From assembly GCF_039537965.1 (NCBI RefSeq), contig NZ_BAABBM010000001.1, forward strand, positions 372,001-436,000: a stretch of DNA of 64,000 nt, read 5' to 3'. Below are positions 6,379 to 63,771 of this stretch, one piece after another. How positions within the stretch are numbered: position 1 is the first letter of the stretch; every line of letters starts with the position of its first letter. A program made the position numbers and the translations under genes. Origin of the DNA: Sphingomonas limnosediminicola. Its GTDB lineage: Bacteria > Pseudomonadota > Alphaproteobacteria > Sphingomonadales > Sphingomonadaceae. Under the pieces are notes generated by a model. That model saw only the letters and a program-made list of their open reading frames with translations, ran no database searches and was not told where the DNA came from.

Positions 6379-6492
6379 GATTTCATCCCCCAAAGCCCGA
6401 TCGCGAACATAAGTGCGATTACAACGGTCGCCTAGCCATCATCATGAGAAGCGGTAGTGAAGATGCATAGTTCGCAACGGGAAGGCAGCTAG

Positions 6493-6520
6493 TGGCAGCA
6501 TTCGACCCATTCCTGCCATC
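6493..6520 (+). repeat. Palindromic intergenic repeat, copy 1 (short form)
   Basis: TGGCAG and CTGCCA form perfect 6-bp arms around the family core TTCGACCCATT. It lies in the spacer between the lemA promoter region and the 3' end of the next minus-strand gene. Additional remnants (GGCAGCTAG) lie just to the left. Confidence 0.7.
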
Positions 6521-6548
6521 GCCATAGGCTTGCCAGCCCGAGCTGAGC

Positions 6549-7016
6549 TTAGAGTGGACGCAGGGTGCAGCTAATTGCGCCGATAGAGACGACCCGCGCT
6601 TCCTTCAGTGGGCCGACCGCTGGGAACGGAGGATGCTGGACTATAATGTCAGTACCCCATGGAGCGGTCGAAACGTTAAGCACGCCGCTAACCGTGGCGA
6701 GGCGGCCTTCGTTAGCAGCAAAGGACTGGCCGACAGCTCGCTGTCCGAGCGCGGAGCGGTCCATCGTCGTTGTTACGTGGGCTCGCTCGCCTTCAGGGGC
6801 ATAGCAGTCCTTCACGCTTTGGCTGAGGACTTGGACGTGGCCATCCACACTGACGAGGTATCCGGTGACCTCCACTCGCTTGCCGTCGTATTTGCCCTGT
6901 TGCCGGATCAGGTCCTCAACCGAAATAGAAGCGCGATAGACACCGGGCCTATTGTTGGAAACGCAGGACCCTAGAGCAACATAGGCCCCTGCAACGTATA
7001 GTTTCCAACGCGGCAT
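6549..7016 (-). CDS. Putative lipoprotein with an OB-fold-like domain
   Basis: A 155-residue protein with a lipoprotein signal: MPRWKLYVAGAYVALGSC, with the lipobox ALGSC giving an acylated cysteine near residue 18. The ATG at 7016 was chosen because CCGGAGGGAGG is directly upstream. The mature part includes YDGKRVEVTGYLVSVDGH and LATVSGVLNV, patterns of short beta-strands like those in small OB-fold domains. No enzyme motif is visible. It is probably anchored in the envelope; function unknown. It is transcribed alone, with repeat copies in the spacers on both sides. Confidence 0.65.
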   Translation of the reverse strand: MPRWKLYVAGAYVALGSCVSNNRPGVYRASISVEDLIRQQGKYDGKRVEVTGYLVSVDGHVQVLSQSVKDCYAPEGERAHVTTTMDRSALGQRAVGQSFAANEGRLATVSGVLNVSTAPWGTDIIVQHPPFPAVGPLKEARVVSIGAISCTLRPL

Positions 7017-7074
7017 AGACCTCCCTCCGGAACCCATTTCCTCCATGACGACCCTGGGGGTCAGTCGGCAAGCC

Positions 7075-7105
7075 TAATGGCAGCTTTCGAGCCAAAGCAG
7101 ACATT
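7075..7105 (+). repeat. Palindromic intergenic repeat, copy 2 (mixed arms)
   Basis: Reads TAATGGCAGC, core TTTCGAGCCAAA, then GCAGACATT. The left arm is of the TGGCAG type and the right arm of the GCGGACA type. It lies in the spacer upstream of the lipoprotein gene at 6549-7016. Confidence 0.65.
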
Positions 7106-7216
7106 CGGTTCACCACTAGCGGACCACCGGCAACGCGCTTAGATCAGGGCCGAGATGGCGATCCACGGCTTATGCCGAACACGCCTCCGGCGACGAACGC
7201 GGCGCCTGCGGCCGCC

Positions 7217-7729
7217 CTAACTTCCGCGGGCTGGCAAATCACTGTTGAAGATGTCTGCGGCGGCTTTCCACTCGCTTCCGATCTTCCGCCAGACGACCAC
7301 GTACTTGCCGGTGTCGGTCTGCGCAGTGCCGTCGGGCGCCACCGCTAGCCTGTACGTCCCACGATCGAGCGCCATGTCACCTGACGATGACACGATGATC
7401 TGCTCCGGAACGAAGGTCAGATCGAATCCGGGCGTCTGCATCATGGAAGCCCACGTCTTCTGGATCGCAGCGCGGCCTTTGACGATCGGGCCGTTGGGCG
7501 GCATCACCGCGCCGTCCTCGGCGTAGAGTGCCGCAATGCCTCCCGCATCCTTGGCTTTGACGAGCTGAAGCCAGTGATCGACCTGCCCGCGGATTGCCTG
7601 CTCATCCGCGCCAGTGTTGGCAGCGGCGACGGTGTTCACTTCGGAGGTGTTATTTGCGGACTTCTCACCTGCCTGGCACGCGGGCAGAAGAAGCACTGTG
7701 GCAGAAAGAAGCAACAGCGTCTTCGTCAT
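7217..7729 (-). CDS. SnoaL/DUF4440-like (NTF2-fold) lipoprotein
   Basis: A 170-residue protein with a lipoprotein signal, MTKTLLLLSATVLLLPAC, cysteine at residue 18. After a Ser/Asn/Ala-rich linker comes an NTF2-like domain from about residue 43: VDHWLQLVKAKDAGGIAALY, GAVMPPNGPIVKGRAAI and YVVVWRKIGSEWKAAADIF, the usual pattern of SnoaL-like proteins. Such domains form small pockets and are either enzymes or binding modules; no catalytic pair can be named here. It is probably attached to a membrane in the periplasm. Transcribed alone; AGGAGG lies just before the ATG. Confidence 0.8.
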   Translation of the reverse strand: MTKTLLLLSATVLLLPACQAGEKSANNTSEVNTVAAANTGADEQAIRGQVDHWLQLVKAKDAGGIAALYAEDGAVMPPNGPIVKGRAAIQKTWASMMQTPGFDLTFVPEQIIVSSSGDMALDRGTYRLAVAPDGTAQTDTGKYVVVWRKIGSEWKAAADIFNSDLPARGS

Positions 7730-7792
7730 TGGGACCTCCTCTCGCTTGTCCTCGCCATTGCACGGTTAACGTGCATCGCGTCGCGTCGCCAC

Positions 7793-7845
7793 TGTCCGCT
7801 TCCCACCCAAAGTTATCGCGGCAGATTTCGACCCATTGCCGCCAT
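7793..7845 (+). repeat. Palindromic intergenic repeat, copy 3 (long form)
   Basis: The long two-core form: TGTCCGC, first core TTCCCACCCAAA, centre ATCGCGGCA, second core TTTCGACCCATT, then GCCGCCA. GCGGCA and TGCCGC make perfect 6-bp arms around the second core. It lies between the divergent genes at 7217-7729 and 7989-8528. Confidence 0.75.
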
Positions 7846-7988
7846 CGGGGTGGACGTCTGTGTCGTCCCGCCTGGCCTTCAAAGCGTGGCCGGATTGCTG
7901 GTGAGACTTCATCAACGATTTTGCTGGCAGTGAGAGCCGCGCTCCCGATGAGCCCAGTATCATCGCGTGTGGTCTGAAGGAGTACTGA

Positions 7989-8528
7989 GTGCCGCTGGCT
8001 ATTCACGAAGAACAGGCTTGCGCCAACAGCCGCCTCGCAGCCCATCGCTTGATCAGCATGCAGTTGCGTTTACTGGAGCTCTGGCGCGACGTTACCGGCG
8101 GCCATGAGGAAGCGCTGGTTGTGATGGCTGTCGTGGCCATCACGGGAGATCGGCTAACCCGAATCGATGCGAACCCTGAGCTGCGGAACATGGCTCATCC
8201 TGTTCCACGAACGATCCTCGGGCGATGCAACATCAGTTCGCTGGCTGCAGCTACGGGTCTGAACAGGGAAACGGCTCGACGCGTCGTCAATCGCTTGGTC
8301 GAACGCGGCGTCCTCGAGCGGTCCCCTGATCGTTCCATCAATTTCACAGCGGGTAGGATGCAAGAGCCCAACGCTTACCGGCTCAGCAAAATTCAACTCG
8401 AGGAGTTTGCTCGGACGGTAAACGCGCTGATGCGGGATGGCGTTCTAACCGGCAGGACTCAATCACCGAAACACATGAAGCCGACGGATGATTTCGAAGC
8501 GGCGCAAATCGTGCCGTCAGGGGAGTAA
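7989..8528 (+). CDS. Winged-helix DNA-binding protein (MarR/Crp-like HTH)
   Basis: A 179-residue protein with a helix-turn-helix at about residues 82-105 (NISSLAAATGLNRETARR) followed by VVNRLVERGVLER, the usual recognition helix and wing of winged-helix regulators. The N-terminal part (LLELWRDVTGGHEEALVVMAVVAI) is helical and may dimerise. The GTG at 7989 has AAGGAG eight bases upstream. No ligand domain is recognisable. It is a probable transcription regulator, but no target is obvious beside it. It stands alone on the plus strand. Confidence 0.65.
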   Translation: MPLAIHEEQACANSRLAAHRLISMQLRLLELWRDVTGGHEEALVVMAVVAITGDRLTRIDANPELRNMAHPVPRTILGRCNISSLAAATGLNRETARRVVNRLVERGVLERSPDRSINFTAGRMQEPNAYRLSKIQLEEFARTVNALMRDGVLTGRTQSPKHMKPTDDFEAAQIVPSGE

Positions 8529-8663
8529 CGCGAGGCGATCAGAAATGCGCCCCGAGTAGGATCACTTACCATAGGGCTCGTAGAAGCTGTCGCGGCCAGG
8601 TGTCGGAGCTCAGTCGAAGTGCACAAAATGTGCGCTAGATGACTGTTCGTCCATCACAGACGA

Positions 8664-8855
8664 ATGTCACGCTCTGCCGATCTGCGAGGGCGGCACTGGA
8701 ACGTGGAGAAGGCAATATCCGAACTGAGCCTCGCATTAGCTGAATGCCGTGCGCACATGGCGCGGCTGACAAATAGTCATCAAAAACTGGAATATCTTGG
8801 GGAAGCCGCACGCGAGATTGAGCAAGCGCTTCAGCTCTTAAGATCGATCAAGTGA
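8664..8855 (+). CDS. Small hypothetical helical protein
   Basis: A 63-residue reading frame beginning MSRSADLRGRHWNVEKAI. Almost all of it is predicted amphipathic helix with heptad-like spacing (ISELSLALAECRAH, LGEAAREIEQALQLL). No known family is recognised and the ribosome-binding site is weak. It is followed after 24 bases by another small gene on the same strand, which favours a real two-gene unit. Confidence 0.45.
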   Translation: MSRSADLRGRHWNVEKAISELSLALAECRAHMARLTNSHQKLEYLGEAAREIEQALQLLRSIK

Positions 8856-8879
8856 TGCTTCGCCAGCATTCGTTGCAGA

Positions 8880-9059
8880 ATGTCCGAAGCAGCGGCCCGC
8901 TCGGTGAGTAGACCGGATCTTCCGCCGTGTTCGGTACCGGGCTGTAAGCGCGCTGCTGGGGCAATAATCAACGGGCAACTCCTGTGCGGAGAGCACGCAT
9001 TAGAGGAGTTCAAGAAGCTGCGAAGAGCGAACGCCGGTTGTACCGACGACGTCCCCTAA
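8880..9059 (+). CDS. Small putative zinc-ribbon protein (59 residues)
   Basis: A 59-residue frame starting MSEAAARSVSRPDLPPC. Its centre has the spacing C-x4-C (CSVPGC), then 14 residues later C-x2-H (CGEH), a plausible four-ligand zinc site. A basic helical tail EEFKKLRRAN follows. The clean ligand spacing and charged tail argue for coding, though the ribosome-binding site is weak. Function unknown; small proteins of this layout often bind nucleic acid or a protein partner. It follows the 63-residue gene by 24 bases. Confidence 0.55.
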   Translation: MSEAAARSVSRPDLPPCSVPGCKRAAGAIINGQLLCGEHALEEFKKLRRANAGCTDDVP

Positions 9060-9130
9060 CGGCCATCGGCGCGGGGTGATGCTCAATTGGCTGACCTGAC
9101 CGAACGCGGCGGTCAGCGGACTGTCAGCTG

Positions 9131-9160
9131 ATGGCAGCTTTCGACCCAAACTTGCCGGTA
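9131..9160 (+). repeat. Palindromic intergenic repeat, copy 4 (partial)
   Basis: ATGGCAGC, core TTTCGACCCAAA, then CTTGCCGG: the left half of a long-form element with the right half degraded. It lies in the spacer after the zinc-ribbon gene and before the OmpA-like fragment. Confidence 0.6.
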
Positions 9161-9216
9161 GCAGCTAGGTCGAATTCGCTCGTTGCAGATTTTCGATCTG
9201 TTCGCCTAATGCGCGG

Positions 9217-9474
9217 ATGACCTTCAGGTTCGTCGTTGCGTTCGTCGGGATATGCTTCGCTGCCACTCCGGCCATGGCGTGCGACAACGGTCCATTCCCT
9301 ATCGACTTCGTCGCAGGCACCGCCACGCTTTCGAAGGGGTCTGGCAAAGAACTGGACAACTCACGAAGCTGGCTCAACGCATATTTGAGATACCCCGCCC
9401 GTCATTTGCCATTGAAAAGCTTGATCTCAGATCCCTTAAACAAATCCACGAAATCGCTCGACCAAGTTGGCTAG
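9217..9474 (+). CDS. Short exported protein resembling a truncated OmpA-like domain
   Basis: An 85-residue frame with a clear signal peptide, MTFRFVVAFVGICFAATPAMA, then CDNGPFPIDFVAGTATLSKG and KELDNSRSWLNAY. That stretch matches the first strand and helix of OmpA-type peptidoglycan-binding domains (IDF, then a small residue-rich loop, then LDN). After about residue 55 the resemblance is lost, and the protein is too short for the full domain of about 100 residues. It looks like a remnant or a shortened gene. It is the last gene before the ABC sugar importer, on the same strand. Confidence 0.45.
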   Translation: MTFRFVVAFVGICFAATPAMACDNGPFPIDFVAGTATLSKGSGKELDNSRSWLNAYLRYPARHLPLKSLISDPLNKSTKSLDQVG

Positions 9475-9582
9475 TCACCGTCGGAGCGGCTCTCATCCCG
9501 GCAATCGAGATTAAAGGGTTTGCTCCACCCCATTGCTGCGGCGATTTCCTTCGGTAAGGATGCGTTGCAAAGGGAGAGTTGC

Positions 9583-10671
9583 GTGGCGAGCCTGGAGCTG
9601 AAGGGCGTCCGAAAGTCGTTCGGTTCGACGTCGGTGCTCGACGATATCGACCTCACGCTCGACGCGCGCGAATTCATCGCCTTCCTGGGTCCGTCCGGCT
9701 CCGGAAAATCGACCTTGTTGCGGATCATCGCCGGCTTGGAGACCGCGGACGCCGGTGAGGTTTGGCTCGAGGGGCGGCGCATCGATGGTTTGCCGCCTGG
9801 CGAGCGCGGCGTCGCCATGGTTTTCCAGCAATACGCACTCTACCCGCACATGAGCGTGCGGGAGAATATGGCGTTCGGCCTCAAGAACGCGCGCGTGCCT
9901 AAGGAGGAGATCGCACGCCGCATTACGGAGGCTGCGCGCGTACTGGAGATTGAGCCGTTGTTAGATCGAAGGCCGGCAGAGATGTCGGGCGGGCAGCGGC
10001 AACGCGTTGCTCTCGGTCGTGCGCTGGTCAAGGAACCCAAGCTGTTCTTGCTCGATGAGCCACTGTCGAACCTCGATGCTGCGCTGCGCCTGCGCACGCG
10101 CGTCGAGCTGGCGCAGCTCAAACAGAGGGTGGATGCGGCTGTGATCATGGTCACGCACGACCAGGCGGAAGCGATGACGCTGGCGGACCGGATCGTCGTG
10201 ATGAACGACCGCAAGATTCAGCAGGTCGGCCCGCCAATGGAGATTTACGGACGACCGGCGAACACCTTCGTTGCGCAATTCGTCGGATCGCCAGCGATGA
10301 CCTTGCTGCCGGCGCAGATGGTCGACGGGACACTCACAACGCTCAAACTTGGTGACGGCACTGTCGTCGGTACGCAGGTGCCGCGGGAGTCGCTGCCATC
10401 TTGGGCGAACCTTCGCCTTGGTCTTCGCCCCGAGGCCGTCCGGATCGGCGGGCGCGGGAAGGGCAAGCCGAAAGCGAAGGTTGAACTCGTCGAACGTCTC
10501 GGCGAGCGGACCTTGATTTATGCCCGGATGGCGGACGGTCAGGCGATCACGGCAGAAGATGAGGGCAACAGCCGCGCCAGGATCGGCGACGAGGTGTCGC
10601 TGAAGATAGACGGTGCGTTGGCATATGTCTTCGACAGTGACGGCAACGGCCATCATCGGGGCGCTGCATGA
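9583..10671 (+). CDS. Sugar ABC transporter ATP-binding protein (MalK/UgpC type)
   Basis: The 362-residue ATPase of a carbohydrate importer. Walker A GPSGSGKST lies at about residue 36, the Q-loop is VFQQYALYPHMSV, the signature MSGGQRQRVALGRAL, Walker B LFLLDEPLSNLD and the H-loop MVTHDQAEAMTLADR. The C-terminal part is the regulatory TOBE/OB region of MalK-type subunits (FVGSPAMTLLPA, LGLRPEAVRIG). The GTG at 9583 was chosen because AAGGGAGAG precedes it and MASLELKGVRKSFG is the usual start. It opens a four-gene operon: ATPase, two permeases, binding protein. Confidence 0.93.
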   Translation: MASLELKGVRKSFGSTSVLDDIDLTLDAREFIAFLGPSGSGKSTLLRIIAGLETADAGEVWLEGRRIDGLPPGERGVAMVFQQYALYPHMSVRENMAFGLKNARVPKEEIARRITEAARVLEIEPLLDRRPAEMSGGQRQRVALGRALVKEPKLFLLDEPLSNLDAALRLRTRVELAQLKQRVDAAVIMVTHDQAEAMTLADRIVVMNDRKIQQVGPPMEIYGRPANTFVAQFVGSPAMTLLPAQMVDGTLTTLKLGDGTVVGTQVPRESLPSWANLRLGLRPEAVRIGGRGKGKPKAKVELVERLGERTLIYARMADGQAITAEDEGNSRARIGDEVSLKIDGALAYVFDSDGNGHHRGAA

Positions 10672-11546
10672 CGAGCGCGCGCGACTGGCGCGGGTTTTTG
10701 TTCGTAGCGCCGTTCCTTCTGCTTTATTCGGTCATCCTCATCTTCCCGCTGCTGCGCGGATTATGGCTGAGCCTCAATCAGGTCGACCTGTTCGGTGCCG
10801 GCCATTTCGTTGGGGCAGGGAATTACGTGCGGCTCGCACGAGACCCTGTGTTTGGTGCGTCGCTTGTCCAGACGTTCGAAGTCACGCTGATGATCGTACC
10901 AGCGCTGACAGTGATCGCGCTCGCACTTGCTCTGGCGCTCAATCGCGGAGGCCGCGGTGCCGCCTTGATGCGCGGCATCTTTTTTTCGTCGGCAGTGCTG
11001 TCTGTAACGATCGTTACCCTGATCTGGCGGTTCATGTTGGCACCGGACGCGGGATTTCTAGGCTTTGCCGCCAAGGCGTTTGGGGTTGAGCCGCTGCCGT
11101 TTCTTAGCGACGAGCATCTCGTATTGCCCGCGCTTGCCGTGACCACGATCTGGTGGTCGGTGGGATTTCCAATGCTGCTGTTCCTTGCCGGACTGCAGCA
11201 GATTCCAGAAGACATGTACGAGGCTGCGGCGCTGGACAATGCGGGCCGCTGGACGACCCTCTGGCGGATCACATTGCCGTCGCTTCGGCGCACTGTCGTG
11301 CTCGTCGTAATGCTGCAGACTGCCGCGCAATTGCAGTTGTTCGGACAATCGCAATTGCTCACGGCCGGCGGTCCCAGCGGAGCATCGCGAACTGCTGTGC
11401 TTTTCCTTTTCGAGACGGCCTTCGGGCGGTGGGAGCTCGGATATGCCAGCGCTGCCGCGGAAGTCCTATTCCTAATCATCCTCGCGGTCACGCTCACCCA
11501 ATATTGGGCAACGGGCAGGGCAACGGCGGCGCAGGATGGCCGCTAA
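10668..11546 (+). CDS. Sugar ABC transporter permease (UgpA/MalF type)
   Basis: The 292-residue first inner-membrane subunit of the importer. It has six or so membrane helices, beginning FLFVAPFLLLYSVILIFPLL. The EAA loop that docks on the ATPase reads YEAAALDNAGRWTTLWRITL (about residues 185-204). The ATG overlaps the stop of the ATPase gene by 4 bases, so translation is coupled. Length and layout match the binding-protein-dependent CUT1 sugar transport family. Confidence 0.92.
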   Translation: MTSARDWRGFLFVAPFLLLYSVILIFPLLRGLWLSLNQVDLFGAGHFVGAGNYVRLARDPVFGASLVQTFEVTLMIVPALTVIALALALALNRGGRGAALMRGIFFSSAVLSVTIVTLIWRFMLAPDAGFLGFAAKAFGVEPLPFLSDEHLVLPALAVTTIWWSVGFPMLLFLAGLQQIPEDMYEAAALDNAGRWTTLWRITLPSLRRTVVLVVMLQTAAQLQLFGQSQLLTAGGPSGASRTAVLFLFETAFGRWELGYASAAAEVLFLIILAVTLTQYWATGRATAAQDGR

Positions 11547-12372
11547 GGTCCTCCGCAACGGGCTTGGGCCAGCCGGGTGGGCGGGCTTGCTTGCGGGCGC
11601 GGCAATCATGCTCGCGCCGCTTGTCTGGACCTTGCTCTTATCTCTCAAGAACAATGCCGAGCTCATCGGGCACAGCGAGGCGGCCTTGCGGGCGCCTTAC
11701 ACATTGCAGAATTATGCGGCTATCATCGGCAACAGCCTCACATTGCGCTGGCTGCTCAACAGCACAATTGTGGCGCTTGGTACGACGGCGGGCGTACTGA
11801 TTCTCGCCAGTCTAGCGGGGTACGGCTTCGCGCGCCTGGACTTCCCGTTGCGCAAAATATTGTTCGTCTTCGTGCTGATCGGCCTCGCGATACCGAGCCA
11901 AGCGGTGATCCTCCCGCAGCATCAGCTGTTTTCCTGGGCGCACCTGCACAACAGCTATCCGGGTCTGATCTTGCCGGGTCTAATCGCGCCGTTCGGCGTG
12001 TTCTTCATGACTACCTACATGCGCGGAATACCACGCGAGCTCGACGAAGCTGCGATGCTCGACGGCGCGTCGCGCTGGACGATTTTCTGGAAGATTATCT
12101 TGCCACTGACCAAGCCGGCCCAGTCGACCTTGGCAGTGTTCACGTTCCTGGGCAGCTGGAATGATTATTGGTGGCCGCTAATCAGCGCCACGCGAAGTGA
12201 TATGTATACGCTGACGGTCGGGCTCGCGGCGGCGCAGATGAATTACGCGCAGACGAGCGGGCTTGGCTATCTGATGGCGCAGGCGATCTTTGCCTCCTTC
12301 CCGATTTTCATCGTCTACATCATCTTCCAGAAGCAAATCGTGCGCGCGATGGCCGGGACCGCCGTTCGATGA
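11536..12372 (+). CDS. Sugar ABC transporter permease (UgpE/MalG type)
   Basis: The 278-residue second permease, partner of the preceding subunit. It starts with a membrane helix (GWAGLLAGAAIMLAPLVWTL), and the EAA loop reads DEAAMLDGASRWTIFWKIIL (about residues 170-189), followed by FTFLGSWNDYWWPL, very typical of MalG/UgpE proteins. It overlaps the previous permease by 11 bases and the binding-protein gene by 4. Confidence 0.92.
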   Translation: MAAKVLRNGLGPAGWAGLLAGAAIMLAPLVWTLLLSLKNNAELIGHSEAALRAPYTLQNYAAIIGNSLTLRWLLNSTIVALGTTAGVLILASLAGYGFARLDFPLRKILFVFVLIGLAIPSQAVILPQHQLFSWAHLHNSYPGLILPGLIAPFGVFFMTTYMRGIPRELDEAAMLDGASRWTIFWKIILPLTKPAQSTLAVFTFLGSWNDYWWPLISATRSDMYTLTVGLAAAQMNYAQTSGLGYLMAQAIFASFPIFIVYIIFQKQIVRAMAGTAVR

Positions 12373-13676: not shown

Positions 13677-13739
13677 CAATCTTGATCAGTGTTGCTGCTT
13701 TGCCGCTTGAATGTTGCGGTCGCGTCGCGGTAACTTTGG

Positions 13740-13766
13740 CTTAAGGTTCAGTAAAACAGCCTTAAG
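13740..13766. promoter_or_regulatory. Perfect 7-bp dyad before the TonB receptor gene
   Basis: CTTAAGG and CCTTAAG face each other across 13 bases, ending 18 bases before the ATG of the receptor gene. It could be a regulator half-site pair or a stem-loop in the leader. No regulator gene is adjacent, so the binder is unknown. Confidence 0.4.
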
Positions 13767-13784
13767 TCGCAAAGGGGGAGAGTT

Positions 13785-16778: not shown

Positions 16779-16803
16779 GCGGTCGTGCATTAGGTACTAA
16801 ATC

Positions 16804-16837
16804 AGGCCGGGGGGCTTAAGTCCTCCGGCCGTTTTTC
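16804..16837 (+). terminator. Intrinsic terminator after the TonB receptor
   Basis: AGGCCGG and CCGGCC form a GC-rich stem (extended by GGG/CTC pairs) around CTTAAG, followed directly by GTTTTTCTT. It starts 26 bases after the receptor stop and ends 14 bases before the halogenase start on the same strand. It should limit read-through into the halogenase genes. Confidence 0.85.
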
Positions 16838-16850
16838 TTGAGCCCGAAGC

Positions 16851-19777: not shown

Positions 19778-19782
19778 TCCTT

Positions 19783-20796
19783 TTAGCGCAGGCTCGGTCC
19801 GAGTTGCGGCTTGCCGTCTTTCCAGAAGATTGGGGCGATATAGAGATAGCGCTTGTCGGCCGCCTTGCGGCAGCCGCTTGTCGCTTCCCACGCATGGAAG
19901 CTCATGAAGCTCCTCTGTCCGACTGTGAAGATGCTCTGGTGCCCTGGACCGCTAATGCAGCCCGATTCGCGGTCGTAGAAGCTGTGCAGCATCGGATTGG
20001 TCGGCGATTTCTTGCACGGGCCTAGCGGACCTGAACAGGTAGCGTAGCCCATTCCGTACGGCGATCGTTCCTGGTCGTCGTTCCAACCGAAAAATGCAGC
20101 GGAAAAGAACAACTCGTAGCCGATCGGCGAGCGGACCATCGTCGGCGCCTCGACCAGTTTCTGCTCCCAGCCCTGATCGTCGTGAATTAGCTCTTTCGCT
20201 TCACCAGAAACGGACAGACCGTCGGCGCTCAACTGCTGCGCCCAGATCGACGAATGCTTGCCGACGCGGTTACCGTCATTCTTGAAGTACAGGTAGAGCT
20301 TGCCGTCAGCATCCTTGAAAGCATCTGCGTCGATGCTCCCGCCGAGTTGTGTCTGGCACACGATCGGGTCGTTTCGGCTATCGACGAACGGCCCCAACGG
20401 ATCGGCGGCTTCCGCGACCCCGATACACTGCGCATTCCGCTTAGCGTCGCTCGCCGTGTAATAAAGCAAGTAGCGGCCGCCAAGCTGAAGCACTTCGGGC
20501 GCCCAGGTGAAGCCGGTCTTTGCCCAACTGCCAAGCCGAGGCAACGCGTCGCGTTTGCGCCCCGATGCATCGGTGACGAAGCGCCAGTTCACAAGATCCG
20601 GCGAGGTCGCCATCGGGACGTTCGGCCCGTCGTTGGTAGAGTAGGCGACGAATTCGCTGCCATGCAAAAGCACGAACGGGTCAGGAAAGTTCTGCTGGAA
20701 AACCGGCACGAACGCCGGGTCGGCTCCCGCGGAGGCTGTGACGCACGACAGGCTCGCTGCAATCGCGAGCCGTTTTAGAATAGCGCGTAACGCCAC
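19783..20796 (-). CDS. Glycoside hydrolase family 43 protein
   Basis: A 337-residue secreted enzyme of the five-bladed beta-propeller GH43 group (arabinofuranosidases, xylosidases and related). A signal peptide MALRAILKRLAIAASLSC leads to FVPVFQQNFPDPFVLLHG, where the Asp of FPDPF is the likely general base. The pKa-modulating Asp fits SIDADAF, and the likely acid Glu is in KLVEAPTMVRS. The GTG at 20796 was chosen for its ACGGAGG site. It is convergent with the halogenase pair and divergent from a second GH43 gene, sharing an 82-base promoter region. Exact substrate cannot be set from the sequence. Confidence 0.87.
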   Translation of the reverse strand: MALRAILKRLAIAASLSCVTASAGADPAFVPVFQQNFPDPFVLLHGSEFVAYSTNDGPNVPMATSPDLVNWRFVTDASGRKRDALPRLGSWAKTGFTWAPEVLQLGGRYLLYYTASDAKRNAQCIGVAEAADPLGPFVDSRNDPIVCQTQLGGSIDADAFKDADGKLYLYFKNDGNRVGKHSSIWAQQLSADGLSVSGEAKELIHDDQGWEQKLVEAPTMVRSPIGYELFFSAAFFGWNDDQERSPYGMGYATCSGPLGPCKKSPTNPMLHSFYDRESGCISGPGHQSIFTVGQRSFMSFHAWEATSGCRKAADKRYLYIAPIFWKDGKPQLGPSLR

Positions 20797-20878
20797 AAGC
20801 GCCTCCGTTCTCGTTGATGACAAGCCTTAGCGATCATTGGTGCTTCCGCAACGGCCGGGGTGCACTTATGGTCGCGGT

Positions 20879-21937
20879 GTGCGGCTGTTCATTGCTTTCG
20901 CTTTCGTGGCGTCCATCGGCCTCAGCGGCTGCGCGAATGTGCCCGCACAAGAACCACGTAGCGCAACGTACACTAATCCCGTCATCGACGCTGATTTTCC
21001 GGACCCGACAGTGATCAAAGCGGTCGACGGAAACTACTACGCTTATGCGACGCAGACGGAGCGCGATGGGCGCTGGGTGAACATTCAGGTCGCCCGATCG
21101 AGCGACCTGGTGCATTGGCAGTATCTGGGAGACGCGCTGCCAGCCAAGCCTGCTTGGGCGGACAAGACGCAAGACTTCTGGGCGCCGGACGTTGTGCGCG
21201 ATGGCAACCGCTATCTGATGTATTATTCCGCCAAGCCAAACGATTCAGACGAACGACACGGCATTTGCCTCGCCGTCGCGACCGGCAAATCGCCAGCCGG
21301 TCCATTCGTCGACATGGGCAATCCCCTGTTGTGCGGCGAAAGCTTCATTAACATCGATCCGATGGCGCTGGATGATCCGGCGTCCGGAAAGCATTTGCTC
21401 TACTGGGGCTCCGGGTTCGAACCATTGAAGGTTCAGGAACTGGGACCGGATCGTATGTCTTTCGCGACTGGAAGCATCGCAAAGCCGCTCGTCTGGCCGG
21501 CTCCCCAGCGCGCATCGTTTCCCGTCCTGATCGAAGGTTCTTGGGTGACGCAGCACGATGGCTGGTTCTATATCTTCTACTCAGGCGACAATTGCTGCGG
21601 CCCGAAAGCGAACTACGCGGTGATGGTTGCGCGTTCTCGCAGCCCTTATGGACCGTTCGAAACGCTCGAGCAGGCAACCGGTCAGCCCCATAGCATCGTC
21701 CTGCAAAAGAGTGCCAAATGGTTCGCACCTGGTCATAATTCAGTTGTCACCGACGCTTCCGGGCAGGATTGGATCGCGTACCACGCCGTGGACGTCGAGC
21801 ATCCACGCGAGAAGCCCACCGACGAGGTGAACACTCGCCGCATCATGCTGATCGACCGCATCAAGTGGCGCAATGGCTGGCCCTACATCGCCGGTCCTAG
21901 CGAGTATCCCCAGCCCGCCCCCCATAATAATCATTGA
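20879..21937 (+). CDS. Glycoside hydrolase family 43 lipoprotein
   Basis: A 352-residue GH43 enzyme. From the GTG at 20879 the N-terminus is MRLFIAFAFVASIGLSGC, a lipoprotein signal with lipobox LSGC, so the enzyme is probably membrane-anchored. The likely general base is in DADFPDPTV, the modulating Asp in INIDPMALDD and the acid Glu in VLIEGSWVTQ. Alternative starts at 20837/20840 would place 13-14 residues before the signal, and no strong ribosome-binding site separates them. It is divergent from the other GH43 gene. The pair probably trims side chains from the glycan taken up by the locus. Confidence 0.87.
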   Translation: MRLFIAFAFVASIGLSGCANVPAQEPRSATYTNPVIDADFPDPTVIKAVDGNYYAYATQTERDGRWVNIQVARSSDLVHWQYLGDALPAKPAWADKTQDFWAPDVVRDGNRYLMYYSAKPNDSDERHGICLAVATGKSPAGPFVDMGNPLLCGESFINIDPMALDDPASGKHLLYWGSGFEPLKVQELGPDRMSFATGSIAKPLVWPAPQRASFPVLIEGSWVTQHDGWFYIFYSGDNCCGPKANYAVMVARSRSPYGPFETLEQATGQPHSIVLQKSAKWFAPGHNSVVTDASGQDWIAYHAVDVEHPREKPTDEVNTRRIMLIDRIKWRNGWPYIAGPSEYPQPAPHNNH

Positions 21938-21943
21938 GCCTGG

Positions 21944-22279
21944 ATGCAGTACAAACCTGGAGTGACTTCGGCCGTGCCGAGACGCGTAAAAGACTTCATC
22001 GACATCAGCGAATATACGTCGCTGTCGGATCTCATCCGCTATCTGGAAACGATCCGGGACAATCTTCCTCCTGAGCACGAGGCGGAGCTGAAGATCCGCG
22101 GCGACGACGTGTTCGGGCGTCGACTGACGATCACCTATTTTCGCGAGCAGACGGCCGAGGAACTGGAGATCGAGTCACGCTACAACGGCGCGACGAAGGC
22201 CGGCGATGCTGACATCGAGGAGTTGCGGCACAAGCTGGATGACGTGCCGCTGAGGCGCGAAGGCATTCCTAAAGTGTAG
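21944..22279 (+). CDS. Conserved-looking hypothetical protein, 111 residues
   Basis: An acidic 111-residue protein starting MQYKPGVTSAVPRRVKDFID. It has a helical SLSDLIRYLETIRDNLPPEHE segment, a strand pair (AELKIRGDDVFGRRLTITYF) and a charged tail (EELRHKLDD). No family is recognised. It begins 6 bases after the GH43 lipoprotein gene and could be read through from it, but nothing in the protein points to sugar metabolism. No signal or membrane segment. Confidence 0.6.
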   Translation: MQYKPGVTSAVPRRVKDFIDISEYTSLSDLIRYLETIRDNLPPEHEAELKIRGDDVFGRRLTITYFREQTAEELEIESRYNGATKAGDADIEELRHKLDDVPLRREGIPKV

Positions 22280-22437
22280 GTCAGCACTTGCGCCGGCATA
22301 GCACCAAAGAGCGCATCGCTTTTCGATGTCGCGTAGTTGTTGGGGCGGCTTGTGCGGCACCCTGACGTCAGCCGTGCTCGTACGTGCCTCGAAACGCCGG
22401 TGTCAGCATCAAGGCCAAAAATGCTCCGCCTCGCTAG

Positions 22438-22469
22438 TGTGCGCAATGGGTGGAAACCGGACGTTAGCG
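22438..22469 (-). repeat. Palindromic intergenic repeat, copy 5
   Basis: TGTGCGC, core AATGGGTGGAAA, then CCGGACGTTAGCG. It lies between two convergent genes, and its TTA supplies the stop codon of the minus-strand gene at 22464. Confidence 0.7.
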
Positions 22470-22691
22470 AACGGGTGGTAGCAGCTCGCGCGATCGTTCA
22501 ATCAGCCATTCGATAGCTACCAACGGAACCGCATTGTGGAGCGTGGTGAGGCTAAATTCGCCCGTCTCGTCGGAGTAGAAAACCTCAGCGACTTCGTCTG
22601 GGTCGCCGTCTCGTCTCAACTCAAGATACATGCCGTCTCGGTCAACGTCGCTCCCCCTTATGAGCGAATACCTTTGACCTGCGGTCTCCAT
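22464..22691 (-). CDS. Small hypothetical protein, 75 residues
   Basis: A 75-residue acidic protein, METAGQRYSLIRGSDVDRDG at the N-terminus, with YLELRRDGDPDEVAEVFYSD (probable beta hairpin) and an amphipathic helix VPLVAIEWLIERSRELL near the end. No known family recognised; no signal peptide. Its stop codon lies inside a repeat copy. AGGGGG lies a few bases before the ATG. Confidence 0.55.
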   Translation of the reverse strand: METAGQRYSLIRGSDVDRDGMYLELRRDGDPDEVAEVFYSDETGEFSLTTLHNAVPLVAIEWLIERSRELLPPVR

Positions 22692-22730
22692 CGTCCCCCT
22701 CCAGACTCGAAAGCTACGGCGACGTTATGG

Positions 22731-22761
22731 TGTCTGCAATGGGTGGAAAGCGGACGCTACG
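22731..22761 (-). repeat. Palindromic intergenic repeat, copy 6
   Basis: TGTCTGC, core AATGGGTGGAAA, GCGGACGCTACGA. The arms pair over seven positions if one G-T wobble is allowed. CTA at 22757-22759 is the stop of the minus-strand membrane protein gene. Confidence 0.75.
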
Positions 22762-23017
22762 AAGGGCGACCCTGGCTAACCAAAATCGCGTATGTTGCAT
22801 TCCCACAAATTGCGAAAAGAATGAGGGGAATACGCATGTCCCTTTCCAGGGATCGCCTCGTCAATGCCACTCCGCGAATCCTCGGTAAGAGCCAAATCCC
22901 GTGAAACGCGATGAAGTTCACAACCCCAAGTATAAGAAACGGTGTCACTCCTCCCAGTAGACCCACGGGAACAAATGCGAGTGACAGAGCCGACGAAAAG
23001 ATTGGAAGCCTGCCCAC
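22757..23017 (-). CDS. Small membrane protein, 86 residues
   Basis: An 86-residue protein with two or three hydrophobic segments: LSLAFVPVGLLGGVTPFLIL, LGVVNFIAFHGIWLL and IPLILFAICGNATYAILV. Between them lies a basic loop (PRIRGVALTRRSLERDM). The frame opens with GTG at 23017. No family recognised. The stop codon falls in repeat copy 6, and the gene is divergent from another membrane protein at 23112 with copy 7 between them. Confidence 0.55.
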   Translation of the reverse strand: MGRLPIFSSALSLAFVPVGLLGGVTPFLILGVVNFIAFHGIWLLPRIRGVALTRRSLERDMRIPLILFAICGNATYAILVSQGRPS

Positions 23018-23042
23018 CCGCCGAAACTCGCATGCGTCACGA

Positions 23043-23098
23043 GTGCCCGCAATAGGTCGCTTCCGGCCGGAATGGGTGGAAAGCGGACATTCCGTTAG
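23043..23098 (-). repeat. Palindromic intergenic repeat, copy 7 (extended)
   Basis: Contains a first degraded unit (GCCCGCAATAGGTCGC) and a full unit GGAATGGGTGGAAAGCGGACATTCC, whose ends GGAATG and CATTCC are perfectly complementary. It lies between two divergent membrane-protein genes. Confidence 0.7.
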
Positions 23099-23111
23099 AT
23101 AGCTTCATAGG

Positions 23112-23615
23112 ATGGACGGCTATCAGACAAGCGACCGAAAGCCTTGGTTCAAATCCAAGCTTTTCCATCTGGGTCTAGCGCTCCTTGGGATAGCAGTGTT
23201 CATCGCCCTCGGAGCGGAATTGAGGAGCGCCTTCGGAATACCATTCAAGACAACCTATCGCGTAGCCTGTGCAGCAGCGTGCCTCCTTTTCATCTACAAG
23301 TTGGGGTCAGATTACCCTTCGGAGACGTGGCCACGGATCAGCTTTTGGCTGTCTTTGCTCATCAACATCGCGATCTTCTTCACGCCGCTCGTCGACCGTC
23401 CGGCTTCGCGAGGCGAACTCATCTTATTTGCTCTGCCGGATGCCGTGGTGACGCTGACGACTTTGCTCGCGACTTATCGCGTTGCTGACTTTCATCAGCG
23501 CGCCATGCGCCAGCAGATGATCCTTGGCCTCATCGTCACAGTTGCAGCTTGTGCTACTCTCTTCACGTTGGTGCTGATGGACCCACACACGGGCCACTTT
23601 TGGGGACTGGGTTGA
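23112..23615 (+). CDS. Integral membrane protein, 167 residues
   Basis: A 167-residue protein with four to five membrane helices: LFHLGLALLGIAVFIALGA, a second from about 45-60, ISFWLSLLINIAIFFTPLV, LFALPDAVVTLTTLLATYRV and MILGLIVTVAACATLFTLVL. The N-terminus is short and basic. The ATG at 23112 lies 14 bases after repeat copy 7, and the ribosome-binding site is weak (TAGG). No family recognised. Confidence 0.65.
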   Translation: MDGYQTSDRKPWFKSKLFHLGLALLGIAVFIALGAELRSAFGIPFKTTYRVACAAACLLFIYKLGSDYPSETWPRISFWLSLLINIAIFFTPLVDRPASRGELILFALPDAVVTLTTLLATYRVADFHQRAMRQQMILGLIVTVAACATLFTLVLMDPHTGHFWGLG

Positions 23616-23649
23616 GCGTCAGTTTTGGGTGGAAAAGCTGACCTTAGCG
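23616..23649 (-). repeat. Palindromic intergenic repeat, copy 8 (arms changed in both halves)
   Basis: GTCAGTTTT, loop GGGTGG, AAAAGCTGAC, then CTTAGCG. The arms differ from the other copies (TCAG in place of TCCG) and the opposite arm has changed to match (CTGA in place of CGGA). It fills the gap between two convergent genes; the stop of the minus-strand gene begins at the next base. Confidence 0.75.
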
Positions 23650-23883
23650 TTAGACCACGCCCCTCTTGTTCCGCTCAATGGTTTCGGGGTCGTACGGCCC
23701 GACCTTCTTCCAGCGGTTACGCAATGTCACGACTACCACACCGAAAGCGGCTGGCACGATGATTAGCTGAAGGTTTTGGAGCAGCCCGGCGCGGGGGTCG
23801 TAAGCCGTCCACCAAATCAGGACGCCAACTGCGATACCGACAATCACCCCAATGTCAGTTCGCCGAGGCTTTGCCCTCGTCAT
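23650..23883 (-). CDS. Small membrane protein, 77 residues
   Basis: A 77-residue protein, MTRAKPRRTDIGVIVGIAVG at the N-terminus, with two membrane segments (IGVIVGIAVGVLIWWTAY and LQLIIVPAAFGVVVVTL) and a basic tail (RNRWKKVGPYDPETIERNK). It looks like a two-helix hairpin with both ends in the cytoplasm. No family recognised. Repeat copies flank it on both sides. Confidence 0.6.
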   Translation of the reverse strand: MTRAKPRRTDIGVIVGIAVGVLIWWTAYDPRAGLLQNLQLIIVPAAFGVVVVTLRNRWKKVGPYDPETIERNKRGVV

Positions 23884-23919
23884 GTCTACCGTCCTCGCCA
23901 GCCAACTATCACGTCCGGC

Positions 23920-23950
23920 GCTAATGTCCGCAATGGATGGAAAGCGGCCT
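23920..23950 (-). repeat. Palindromic intergenic repeat, copy 9
   Basis: GCTAATGTCCGC, core AATGGATGGAAA, GCGGCCT. The left arm is the best match to the family arm; the right arm is shortened. The likely stop of the frameshifted membrane gene (TCA, 23950-23952) starts at its last base. Confidence 0.7.
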
Positions 23951-24379
23951 CAGAGATCTCGCCTTTCGGCATAGTCGCGCGCTGCGCGAGGCTCTGGCGC
24001 GAAGAGTCTCTGGGGTGCCCCGTGTATTAGCCGAAACGTTACGTACACGACGCCCATCGTGACCAAGGTGTCTACTGCCATAACGGGCATTATCGTGAGC
24101 CCCGTCCACGAGCCTGCGACGGACCAGTTGATACGAGAAAGAAACTACGAAATGGAGGGCTGCCACAGCCGCCGCGACGACCCAGAACCAAGGTCGGTGC
24201 CGCAGTGGCCAACACGTTCCCATACACGAGATGAGAACACCGACTGCAGCACCGCATGCAACGCAGAGACCTGCATGACCGTAAGAACTAAGCGACAAAT
24301 ACACGGCCGCTGCAGCGCCGATGCATAAGTACGCTTCGAGGTTCGATATCACTCGGAATGGCGAGATGTTTTCACCCAT
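23950..24379 (-). pseudogene. Membrane protein gene with an apparent frameshift
   Basis: The frame from ATG 24379 codes for a plausible membrane protein (AYLCIGAAAAVYLSLSSYG, a second helix, FWVVAAAVAALHFVVSFSY). After about 24140 it turns into arginine/histidine-rich sequence. From there the +1 frame reads SRINWSVAGSWTGLTI, then MPVMAVDTLVTMGVVYVTF, a convincing fourth helix, and stops with TGA at 23950-23952 beside a repeat copy. The composite protein would have about 142 residues and four helices. A one-base insertion (or two-base loss) between about 24145 and 24110 explains this; a sequencing error is equally possible. No family recognised. Confidence 0.5.
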
Positions 24380-24467
24380 CTTCAGGTTGCCTCAAAGCCC
24401 CAGGTGAAATCCATGGTTCCAGAATCCTAGAACCTCTGCAAGCGGACGGATTCTGAGGTTTCTCTAG

Positions 24468-24498
24468 AGTCCGCTTTGGGTCGAAAGCCGCCGCTAGC
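24468..24498 (-). repeat. Palindromic intergenic repeat, copy 10
   Basis: AGTCCGCTTT, GGGTCG, AAAGCCGCC, then GCTAGCG. CGCTTT is answered by AAAGC, so the stem runs into the core. A weaker related fragment (TGGCAG, TTTCGACACATT) lies at about 24570-24595 in the same spacer. Confidence 0.65.
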
Positions 24499-24607
24499 GG
24501 ACGGTCCGCTGGCGGCCAAAGCTGGACACAGGGCAGGGGGGGGATGTCCGCCAAGCGCCCAAACTTGGCGTGGCAGGTTTCGACACATTGTTGATAGCGC
24601 GCCGGTG

Positions 24608-24796
24608 CTATCCGGCTGCAAGCCAAGCATCGCTGCAAACCAAGATGAGTTCGCGTCTTTCAGCTGGCTTCCTCAGGTGTTCCTCGACAGCCATTCGATC
24701 GTCCTCTGACAAGAGCCGGATGATGGCTGCAACACTGCGGCACTGTCCCGATCGCGCGAGGGTAAACGCACGTTCAACGGCAGCAGACCTGGTCAT
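24608..24796 (-). CDS. Small hypothetical protein, 62 residues
   Basis: A 62-residue helical protein starting MTRSAAVERAFTLARSGQCR, then SVAAIIRLLSEDDRMAVEEH and a C-terminal part ending SDAWLAAG. The pattern of a short helix, a Ser-Val turn and a second helix suggests a small DNA- or protein-binding bundle, and I have the impression of similar short proteins in sphingomonads. The start at 24796 was preferred because upstream in-frame sequence reads through a repeat copy. No signal or membrane segment. Confidence 0.5.
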   Translation of the reverse strand: MTRSAAVERAFTLARSGQCRSVAAIIRLLSEDDRMAVEEHLRKPAERRELILVCSDAWLAAG

Positions 24797-24830
24797 CAAT
24801 GATGCATAGCCCGCACGAAGGCCGAGGCGA

Positions 24831-24883
24831 ATGTTCTTTTCCACCCAAGCCTGCCGCGGCAACTTTCGACCCATTCCTGCCAT
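24831..24883 (+). repeat. Palindromic intergenic repeat, copy 11 (long form)
   Basis: ATGTTC, first core TTTTCCACCCAAG, centre CTGCCGCGGCA, second core CTTTCGACCCATT, CCTGCCAT. It has the palindromic centre TGCCGCGGCA of the long form. It lies between the 62-residue gene and the EF-hand gene. Confidence 0.75.
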
Positions 24884-24926
24884 GAGCAACGCCTCGTCCG
24901 GAGCTACGTGGAGACCTGACGCTCCG

Positions 24927-25451
24927 CTAATAGCAGCCGCGGATCGGTTGTCGGTCTCTTCCGAAGTTGTCGGCAGTGAACTCAGCAAAAGTGATTTTAC
25001 CGTCGTGGTTGCTATCCATCAGCTTGAACTCTTGGTCCGTCGCGCACATCAACTGCACGCGACCATTCTGCGGGACGGGAGCGACCATCCGCGCTTGCAT
25101 GAATGACCACTCTTTGCGTGAAATCACGCCATCGTGGTTCAGGTCTAGTCCCGAAAAGCCTCTTTTTGCCGCCTGCATATGCTGTTCATAGGTGGGAGTT
25201 CGGGCTCGGCTGAGCGTTAATTTAGAAGCGGACGACACAACTCCGCAATAGACTGAGCGTGGAGCACTCGCGATGTTAGGCCTGTTCAGAACCCCGCACG
25301 CCGGGGGAGGCGTTAGAGGCGGTATCTCACCAACACGCAGCGGATAGCTTCTCTGCGTTATTCGGATGTCTGACGGGTTCGTTGCCTGCGCGAATGCCGT
25401 CCCCTCGTATCCGAAGATCAGTGCCGGGAAGAACGCTACGAGGACCCGCAA
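24927..25451 (-). CDS. Exported EF-hand protein
   Basis: A 174-residue protein with a signal-like N-terminus (RVLVAFFPALIFGYEGTAFAQA) and two EF-hand loops: DLNHDGVISRKEW (about residues 103-115) and DSNHDGKITFAEF (about 151-163). Both have the acidic residues at positions 1, 3, 5 and 12 needed to bind calcium. The TTG start at 25451 was chosen because GGAG precedes it by 6 bases and the signal then starts at once. A longer frame back to 25541 would begin inside a repeat copy. Such proteins probably sense or buffer calcium in the envelope; no partner is apparent nearby. Confidence 0.75.
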   Translation of the reverse strand: MRVLVAFFPALIFGYEGTAFAQATNPSDIRITQRSYPLRVGEIPPLTPPPACGVLNRPNIASAPRSVYCGVVSSASKLTLSRARTPTYEQHMQAAKRGFSGLDLNHDGVISRKEWSFMQARMVAPVPQNGRVQLMCATDQEFKLMDSNHDGKITFAEFTADNFGRDRQPIRGCY

Positions 25452-25525
25452 ACCCGTCTCCAGAACAACCTCGCCTCTGCCTTCAGTTCTCGTCGCGATG
25501 ACCCATGGCGTCAACCGCGTCACGT

Positions 25526-25582
25526 AATGTCCGCTTTCCACCCAAACTTACCGCGGCAGCTTTCCACCCATTGCAGACGTAA
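25526..25582 (+). repeat. Palindromic intergenic repeat, copy 12 (long form)
   Basis: AATGTCCGC, core TTTCCACCCAAA, centre CTTACCGCGGCAGC, second core TTTCCACCCATT, GCAGACGTAA. It is the best-preserved long copy in the window. It lies between the divergent EF-hand and lipoprotein genes. Confidence 0.8.
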
Positions 25583-25605
25583 GGGGTCTGTGGGACTTCG
25601 GTGTG

Positions 25606-26079
25606 ATGCGCGGACAGATAATATTCATCGCGGCATCGCTCTCGTCAGCCTGTTCGACCGCCGAGGAGCGGCAGCACTCGCGGCTCATGGACCAGATTGA
25701 AAAGAAAGTGCGGATGCCAGCTGGCTCCCGCCCGCTCGCAGAATATGCCCGATATTACGCGTTCGATAAGCGTGGGCATGTTATCGCGGTTTACACGACC
25801 TTCCTTGAACCAAGCTACACCTCGCTAAACCTACCTGCCGGGCATCGAAGGTGCGTGAGCGACGAGGGAAAACTACCATCAATCTCCGATGGAGGATGCG
25901 GTGTCGTTGAAGTGCGGTTCGACCCTACCGCCGAAGAAGTCCTAGGAGTGGCGTGCAACGGCTTGGCCTATTGTCCGCTTTCCACCCAAACCTGCCGCGG
26001 CAGCGTTCAACCCAAACCAGACATTAACGGGCAGACAAGGTTGCAGGTGAATGCTTGCCAGCCATCCGACGCATGGTAG
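25606..26079 (+). CDS. Putative lipoprotein whose 3' end runs through a repeat
   Basis: A 157-residue frame with a lipoprotein signal MRGQIIFIAASLSSAC (cysteine at 16). The mature part contains LAEYARYYAFDKRGHVIAVY and CVSDEGKLPSISDGGCGVVE, the latter with paired cysteines. From about residue 122 (YCPLSTQTCRGSVQPKPD) the frame translates repeat copy 13 and then spacer, so the last 35 or so residues are unlikely to be original. The native C-terminus was probably lost or replaced when the repeat arrived. No family recognised. Confidence 0.55.
   Translation: MRGQIIFIAASLSSACSTAEERQHSRLMDQIEKKVRMPAGSRPLAEYARYYAFDKRGHVIAVYTTFLEPSYTSLNLPAGHRRCVSDEGKLPSISDGGCGVVEVRFDPTAEEVLGVACNGLAYCPLSTQTCRGSVQPKPDINGQTRLQVNACQPSDAW
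25970..26028 (+). repeat. Palindromic repeat, copy 13 (long form), within a reading frame
   Basis: ATTGTCCGC, core TTTCCACCCAAA, centre CCTGCCGCGGCAGC, second core GTTCAACCCAAA, CCAGACATTAA. The same long form as copies 11 and 12, but here translated as the end of the lipoprotein gene. Confidence 0.75.
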
Positions 26080-37697: not shown

Positions 37698-37747
37698 CGT
37701 GAATGCAAGATGAATGTGTCCACAAGCGGACAGTTGCTTTCGACCAA

Positions 37748-37837
37748 TGGCGGATGGGGTGGGATTCGAACCCACGGTGAGCTTACACCCACGGCGGTTT
37801 TCAAGACCGCTGCCTTAAACCACTCGGCCACCCATCC
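37748..37837 (-). tRNA. tRNA-Ser (anticodon TGA)
   Basis: A 90-base tRNA. The acceptor arm GGATGGG pairs with CCCATCC, the discriminator is G, and CCA is encoded (37748-37750). The anticodon arm GCGGT-CTTGAAA-ACCGC gives anticodon TGA, reading UCA and probably other UCN codons. A long variable arm is present as in all serine tRNAs, and the T arm reads GTGGGTTCGAATCCCAC. Confidence 0.97.
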
Positions 37838-63542: not shown

Positions 63543-63577
63543 GTATGGTTTAGGGTGAGAGCATCGCTATTGCGAGC

Positions 63578-63668
63578 GGTGGAAGCCGACGACCCGGCAC
63601 GAAATCGTTGTGGCTGCTTCCTTCCGGACCTGACCAGGTTGGCGACAATGCCGTCCGCCGACTTCCGC
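63578..63668 (-). ncRNA. ffs: Signal recognition particle 4.5S RNA
   Basis: Read on the minus strand, the apical domain shows CCTGGTCAGGTCCGGAAGG then AAGCAGCCA (about 63609-63640), the conserved Ffh-binding loop of bacterial SRP RNA. The ends GGAAGTCGGC and GTCGGCTTCC pair to close the long hairpin. It targets nascent membrane proteins together with Ffh. The position just before dnaX is common in alphaproteobacteria. Ends are estimated to within about five bases. Confidence 0.93.
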
Positions 63669-63771
63669 GCGGGCATATGGGTGAAGCGGACCGCTCGTGC
63701 AAGTTCATCTTCCTTCATCGGCGGTTCACGCGCATGGACCGACCAGCCTGCTATTCCCGGAGGCCGACCGA

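Follow-up and report, generated by a model that had tools for sequence, protein, structure and literature searches.

Why should one short palindrome recur in nearly every spacer of two islands of small genes? The question is raised by a 64,000-nucleotide stretch of Sphingomonas limnosediminicola DNA (the window, G000:C1:372001-436000, in a host genome of one contig and 2,848,166 bases), in which an original prediction from the letters alone had listed 13 copies of a palindromic element and likened them to REP (repetitive extragenic palindromic) and BIME (bacterial interspersed mosaic element) sequences that prefer spacers of accessory genes. The present analysis points elsewhere: the element is probably the core site for recombination in a gene-cassette system resembling integrons, with a site that differs from the integron's and a recombinase that is probably different too, and very small. 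A better account of its position in spacers is that it joins mobile units of mostly one gene each.

All copies are variants of one 36-bp element, GCTAATGKCMGC-TTTCSACCCAWW-SCKGMCATTAGC; 52 copies from the host genome align without gaps across the 36 columns, and the five bases flanking the element on either side show little preference. A covariance model (CM R1) trained on these 52 copies matched all 13 of the predicted copies, with E-values of 5.5e-10 to 7.4e-5 (unfiltered), and returned the layout described before, with nine of them between 22.4 and 26.0 kb and four between 6.5 and 9.2 kb. Of the 52 training rows, five come from the window, which makes the match partly circular in their case. 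The sole further window match at E<=0.01 is the opposite-strand reading of the copy at 7073. Faint traces had also been pointed out near 27701, which is weak (E=0.2), and near 37723, which is not among the matches at E<=1. The two-core form that had been set apart from the single-core form does exist, as two elements in direct tandem.

Genome-wide, at least 145 matches were found at E<=0.1, the totals being lower bounds in that the scan scored the best 150 of 2089 first-look candidates. The nine-base core TTTCSACCC occurs 198 times (88+110), against 32 (13+19) for the pattern read backwards. Of 187 own copies, 13 have their centre within a called gene, against 135 expected from coding density (gene calls in this count, in the test on small genes and in the array counts below come from a home-made hexamer gene caller). 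The copies are unevenly spread, as had been predicted: on a grid of 32 stretches (640 kb), 27 elements lie in nine stretches, two of which hold 17, and 23 stretches have none. Of 40 planned grid positions, six midpoints are absent (the window is among them, and so are two beside element clusters, near 925 and 1210 kb) and two overlapping stretches were dropped, so that the grid rather undercounts clusters. Other loci (L029-L034 and L209-L248) were picked for holding element matches. The prediction of a true repeat family, clustered in islands and nearly confined to spacers, is thus borne out; its suggested enrichment beside small genes is weak (odds ratio 1.68, p=0.017), with p=0.15 once spacer length is matched.

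The most conserved part of the element is its centre, the 'loop', above the stem. When copies were picked by the 24 arm columns alone with a position weight matrix (PWM), the core was within one mismatch of TTTCSACCC in 74 of 86; the threshold of that scan gave 141 raw matches against 39 in a reversed control, and the remaining 12 places may therefore all be false. A looser arms-only scan (at least 11 of 12 arm positions) was uninformative, with 596 matches against 524 in reversed sequence. Each arm occurs in two alleles, GTCCGC or GGCAGC on the left and GCGGAC or [CG]CTGCC on the right. Among 121 own copies, taken above a threshold with zero control matches, alleles are linked inside an arm (phi 0.74 left, 0.55 right) and linkage across the core is absent (phi -0.08, p=0.42 for columns L5-R16; 0.02, p=1.0 for L3-R14); core position 4 is associated with the left arm (phi 0.38) and not with R14 or R16, and there is a link to R18 among own copies (p=0.003). 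In 443 copies from several genomes, stratified and with the 121 included, Mantel-Haenszel odds ratios are 19 and 23 within arms and 0.72 and 1.46 across. The simplest reading of these sequences is that crossing-over would occur inside the core, probably in ACCCA.

The arms bear no sign of compensatory pairing. With a 12-bp stem imposed, 67.8% of cells are paired against 67.3% +/- 1.2 in shuffles, and pairs altered on both sides number 7 against 8.4, so that a stem constraint is not upheld. Folded as single strands, the consensus and one perfect copy are strong and a mixed-arm copy is not. No Rfam family was found at elements in the window, L113, L121, L116, L118 or L241, and a reading as an RNA element was dropped on the strength of that search.

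The ends of duplicated DNA often fall at the element. In blastn comparisons among the sampled stretches of the host genome, the ends considered were those no more than 1.5 kb from an element; of 48 such homology ends, 25 are at most 30 bp away from an element centre, against 3.2 +/- 1.7 (maximum 12) in 1000 rounds of local random shifts; among relatives the count is 15 of 28, against 1.7 (maximum 7). Both partners of a homology pair were counted, and the ends are not all independent. At L033 7532-8117, homology to L211 (96.4%) begins at TTCCACCC with unrelated left flanks and stops in the next core, and so runs core to core; L034 5591-6169 against L046 and L025 6349-6485 against L033 begin at a core with differing left arms; and at the right end of the window unit 24464-24877 identity spans the core and ends at the right arm. 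The second copy of that unit is in the same genome, at L034 11306-11713 (about G000:C1:2263306-2263713), and two units that are neighbours in L211 sit 4.5 kb apart in L210. Of eight pairs aligned, L029/L033 (12.7 kb) and the window segment 21949-22248, a 300-bp copy of L014 9172-8872 with 98.7% identity, have no element at either end, and the homology of L029 17306 to L033 does not stop at an element. Genes for tRNA-Arg(TCG) at L029 9282-9358 and L032 15022-15098 lie within related segments bounded by an element on one side; the same tRNA-Arg(TCG) is also present in L059 and L123.

Between these joints the genes are arranged in polar arrays. The strand switches between 26 of 284 pairs of neighbouring elements 60-3000 bp apart, against 66.8 +/- 5.0 in permutations, and the 255 same-strand intervals (median 666 bp) hold one called gene in 164 cases, two in 45 and none in 24. 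In the single-gene intervals 98 genes run along the element direction and 66 are opposed to it (p=0.015). A scan of the 140 best-scoring of 196 cargo genes returned 144 Pfam families; the commonest was the PEP-CTERM sorting motif (13/140), followed by families with five each. Close same-strand pairs of elements (n=67) stand 26 bp apart in 24 cases (e.g. window 25523/25549 and L029 1218/1244) and 35-38 bp apart in 41, with one each at 33 and 34 bp; five convergent close pairs abut at 34-35 bp, and no divergent close pairs were seen.

A candidate enzyme is encoded in one of the islands. Six PF00589 matches were found in the genome, one of them a 197-aa open reading frame (ORF) in the L034 island (G000:C1:2258586-2259179), and relatives of this small recombinase occur in other element-holding loci. 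The protein, about 200 aa long, matches the PF00589 catalytic domain only, and the core-binding domain was not matched; it thus fits neither of the two types into which a scheme given in PMC8138268 splits tyrosine recombinases, namely core-binding plus catalytic (CB+CAT) and arm-binding plus both (AB+CB+CAT). The active-site Arg, Lys, His, Arg and Tyr are present in 28 of 28 sequences and a second His in at least 90%, the latter being missing in L191. In the predicted structure (predicted local distance difference test score 84.3, predicted template modelling score 0.81) the fold appears nearest to XerH and XerA, then to Tn1549 Int and Cre and, lower, to an integron integrase (2a3v).

A tree of the 28 sequences contains a clade B (support 1.0) and a clade A (0.71, or 0.945 with L100 and L196). 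In all nine clade-A loci with elements on both sides (L179, L181, L184, L185, L186, L191, L199, L201 and L207) the arrays converge on the recombinase gene, whichever strand it is on; L201 and L207 are near-identical and from one genome, and L181 and L199 share a genome, and the nine are therefore not all independent. L182 and L183 have left elements only, pointing at the recombinase. Across five wide clade-A loci left elements point right in 33 of 33 cases and right elements point left in 30 of 33, the three exceptions lying in L034, at least 4.5 kb out. A recombinase remnant (G010:C1:679728-679928, L242) also stands at a convergence point. Close to genes of other lineages of the small recombinase, up- or downstream of them (L188, L192, L193, L195, L196 and L203), palindromes with other centres (e.g. 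TTTCGGCCA, TTTGCGCCCC, TTTTAGCC) were read by eye; such centres include TTTTAGCC in G060 and TTTGCGCCCC in G002, G006 and G013. With a strict arm pattern over 61 genomes such different-core palindromes did not form families among the matches listed, and they are unproven as cognate sites. A further PF00589 recombinase of the host is found in a 495-aa open frame at G000:C1:319848-320402; some 0.8 kb separate its matched part from the element at 319008.

In a search of relatives, elements were found in 36 of 61 genomes (own genome included; E<=0.001 with strict filters), with 0 to 111 per genome in the genus. GTDB genomes contain at least 120 stretches with an exact 24-base pattern for which a rough estimate of chance gives about one or less; among the matches listed are Lysobacter, Dyella, Pseudomonas, Brevundimonas, Caulobacter, Phenylobacterium and a sphingomonad plasmid. 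Matches per genome reach 33 in Lysobacter, 16 in Dyella and 28 in Caulobacter, with few copies in Pseudomonas. Nine of 37 genus genomes have an intact clade-A recombinase, and these carriers are richer in elements (Mann-Whitney U test, p=0.021): they account for five of the eight genomes with at least 40 elements and four of the 29 with fewer (p=0.012, the cut having been chosen afterwards). Plasmids often carry members of the wider recombinase family, with matches at E<=1e-20 in 427 of 72,556 records; a search for a palindrome at the recombinase of four such plasmids (Bosea, Kozakia, Asticcacaulis and Paracoccus) turned up no R1-like site. No description of the element or the system was found among the titles and abstract openings that searches of open-access literature listed.

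How could such a site work? Sites of the Xer/dif, pdif and Cre/lox type have inverted arms around a short asymmetric overlap, in an 11-6-11 arrangement, and the element shares that anatomy. By analogy, each of the two inverted arms, GCTAATGKCMGC(TTT) and its mirror, would be occupied by a single recombinase subunit, and the short asymmetric overlap between them, CSACCCA, would have to match between partners and would set the direction of the site. Two direct sites would recombine in the overlap to excise the intervening gene as a circle with one hybrid site, the reverse reaction would insert the circle into any site, and repeated rounds would build same-strand arrays in which successive genes are separated by a site and left and right arms are freely mixed. 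The likely recombinase is the catalytic-domain-only tyrosine recombinase of about 200 aa. Cargo lies between direct sites and the recombinase gene between sites facing each other, and the latter would therefore be invertible but not excisable. Because about half of the element-bearing genus genomes lack its gene, the cutting of the sites by the small recombinase is a role that we infer. Circle intermediates and current activity are likewise inferred.

The resemblance to the Xer and Cre systems extends to the predicted fold, but the enzyme here has no core-binding domain, the site would be about 15-6-15, and there are more than 100 intergenic sites. Shufflon (Rci) and FimB/FimE-type invertases are small tyrosine recombinases as well, NF007370 and NF007371 match the small recombinase weakly, and inverted sites around the recombinase would likewise give inversion; unlike in those systems, most of the sites here flank whole, unrelated genes as direct repeats.

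Several observations weigh against a cassette system run by the small recombinase. No match to it at E<=1e-25 was found in 15 of the 31 genus genomes that have elements (seven of these fall short of 90% completeness) or in 17 of 23 further genomes, all element-bearing, and G014, which is 100% complete and has 77 elements, lacks it; conversely, G002, G006 and G013 have a clade-B recombinase and no elements, and for clade B no association with the number of elements is seen (p=0.51). Outside clade A the geometry is different: nearby elements point away from the gene in L100, L180, L196 and L098, and inward in other loci of clade B (L192, L204). Of 24 convergent neighbour pairs, five enclose an intact recombinase, one a remnant and 18 neither, and in Caulobacter sp. 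17J80-11 (L264 1349-17380) nine right-pointing and ten left-pointing elements converge on ORFs that resemble sensor kinases by eye and do not match the small recombinase. (A tRNA-Lys lies near this convergence point.) Homology ends between own and relative genomes are unenriched at elements (1/22 against 0.9 in the null), and the sites on either side of the duplicated unit 24464-24877 are oppositely oriented, an arrangement that is not accounted for by a simple circle with one site. Nor is arm assortment entirely clean: R16 in G010 is correlated with core position 4 (p=3e-4) and with W11 (p=9e-6), own-genome core position 4 is weakly associated with R16 (p=0.048), and L3-R14 in G014 gives p=0.065.

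The genomes that are rich in elements and lack the small recombinase would be accommodated if the same cassette system were driven by host XerC/XerD or by another integrase, such as the 495-aa one, with the small recombinase a frequent passenger. All 61 genomes hold sub-cut-off matches to the integron-integrase model, read as Xer-type proteins, and the 495-aa protein has its matched part close to an element. Against it stand the meeting of the arrays at the small recombinase in all nine clade-A loci flanked on both sides and the remnant at a convergence point in L242, and this explanation is considered unlikely. A dedicated enzyme might also be dispensed with altogether, the elements being mere short homologies or fragile hairpins at which RecA or replication slippage joins accessory genes. 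They are indeed repeats, with strong single-strand folding of the consensus and of the perfect copy, but for RecA a partly diverged repeat of 36 bp is short, and a hairpin leaves unexplained the asymmetric conserved core, the assortment of arms with loss of pairing, the same-strand arrays and the convergence on a recombinase; the chances of this account are rated as low.

Two known kinds of element remain to be weighed. Ordinary integron cassette arrays, or CALINs (clusters of attC sites lacking integron integrases), with unusual attC sites would share with the present arrays the repeated site between mostly one-gene units, the single direction per array, the diverse accessory cargo, the dyad symmetry and the occurrence of a tyrosine recombinase in some arrays, others being integrase-less. 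In attC sites the end boxes are RYYYAAC and GTTRRRY, and a search of both strands up to 20 bp from the element found them at none of 186 own elements (the 187th is too near an end). No protein in 61 genomes exceeds 265 bits with the integron integrase model TIGR02249, the best of the host reaching 73.7, and thus IntI is lacking; the site is a near-symmetric, duplex-type 36 bp with a near-invariant asymmetric centre to which crossovers map, conserved in sequence and not in structure; and clade-A arrays face their recombinase from both sides. The arrays are moreover found in Alphaproteobacteria, from which, according to a statement in the survey PMC9668308, integrons are entirely absent. Membership was rejected on the integrase cut-off, the attC boxes and the structure-based conservation; integrons are kept as an analogy, and it is very improbable that the arrays are integrons in disguise. 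Still less credit is given to a REP/BIME-like or miniature inverted-repeat mobile hairpin spread by a transposase, the kinship drawn in the original prediction. The element is short, intergenic and palindromic, has single and double forms and over 100 copies, and is patchy between species. Yet PF01797, the family of the Y1 transposases associated with REP sequences (RAYT), has no match in the host genome (the control was positive in 5 of 14 genomes), there is no covariation between the arms and several homology breakpoints lie within the element and not at its borders; REP/BIME with RAYT was rejected accordingly.

With the element read as a cassette site, the window's two islands are arrays of cassette type without a recombinase gene of their own. 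In the first, all on the plus strand, single elements lie at 6488-6523 (GGCAGC-ATTCGACCCATT-CCTGCC; CM R1 E=2.4e-7, as for the values that follow), 7073-7108 (1.7e-7) and 9127-9162 (7.2e-10), and a two-core element, a 26-bp tandem with cores at 7800 and 7826 and its second unit at 7814-7849, spans 7788-7849 (5.8e-5 at 7818-7845). The second island opens with six elements on the minus strand, at 22433-22468 (7.5e-9), 22726-22761 (4.1e-8), 23059-23094 (1.1e-8, with a degenerate second unit adjoining at about 23039-23074), 23612-23648 (divergent, 7.4e-5), 23920-23955 (1.2e-6) and 24463-24498 (5.5e-10), and continues with three two-core elements on the plus strand, at 24826-24887 (4.2e-6 at 24853-24887), 25523-25584 (1.2e-5 at 25551-25584; PWM units 25523 and 25549) and 25967-26028 (4.3e-6 at 25967-26001; PWM units 25967 and 25993). 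The duplicated gene unit 24464-24877 (95.7% identity over 414 columns to L034 11713-11306) has both ends at elements: the L034 homology begins at 24464, in the element at 24463, and stops at the border of core and right arm in the second unit of the element at 24826.

Genes between elements are, in the first island, one without a Pfam family at E<=0.001 (6552-7016, minus), a DUF4440/SnoaL-like gene (7217-7729, minus; PF14534, 1.5e-16) and a winged-helix regulator-like gene (7989-8528, plus; most matches under Pfam cut-offs). In the second they include two without a Pfam family (23112-23615, plus, and the small 23650-23847, minus) and one for an EF-hand protein (24927-25541, minus; PF13202, 8.6e-11). 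A second repeat of about 85 bp, 82-91% identical, adjoins elements at window 24473-24561, L032 18027-18111, L025 4738-4816 and L034 11619-11706. Other RNAs of the window, all on the minus strand, are a cobalamin riboswitch (2683-2823), a tRNA (37751-37837) and a bacterial small signal recognition particle RNA (63575-63669).

Taken further, and tentatively, the system may be a distinct, integron-independent platform for gene capture in Alphaproteobacteria and some Gammaproteobacteria, in which a CAT-only recombinase lies between inverted sites and is thereby kept from excising itself, two arrays grow outward from it with double-stranded core sites as joints, and several site and recombinase lineages differ in their overlap. 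If the arrays are active, Alphaproteobacteria would own a route to stockpile and shuffle single genes that is invisible to searches for IntI. How a one-domain, very small recombinase keeps direction becomes testable with a compact candidate pair of site and enzyme, and the islands of hypothetical genes in sphingomonads become readable arrays with exact unit boundaries.

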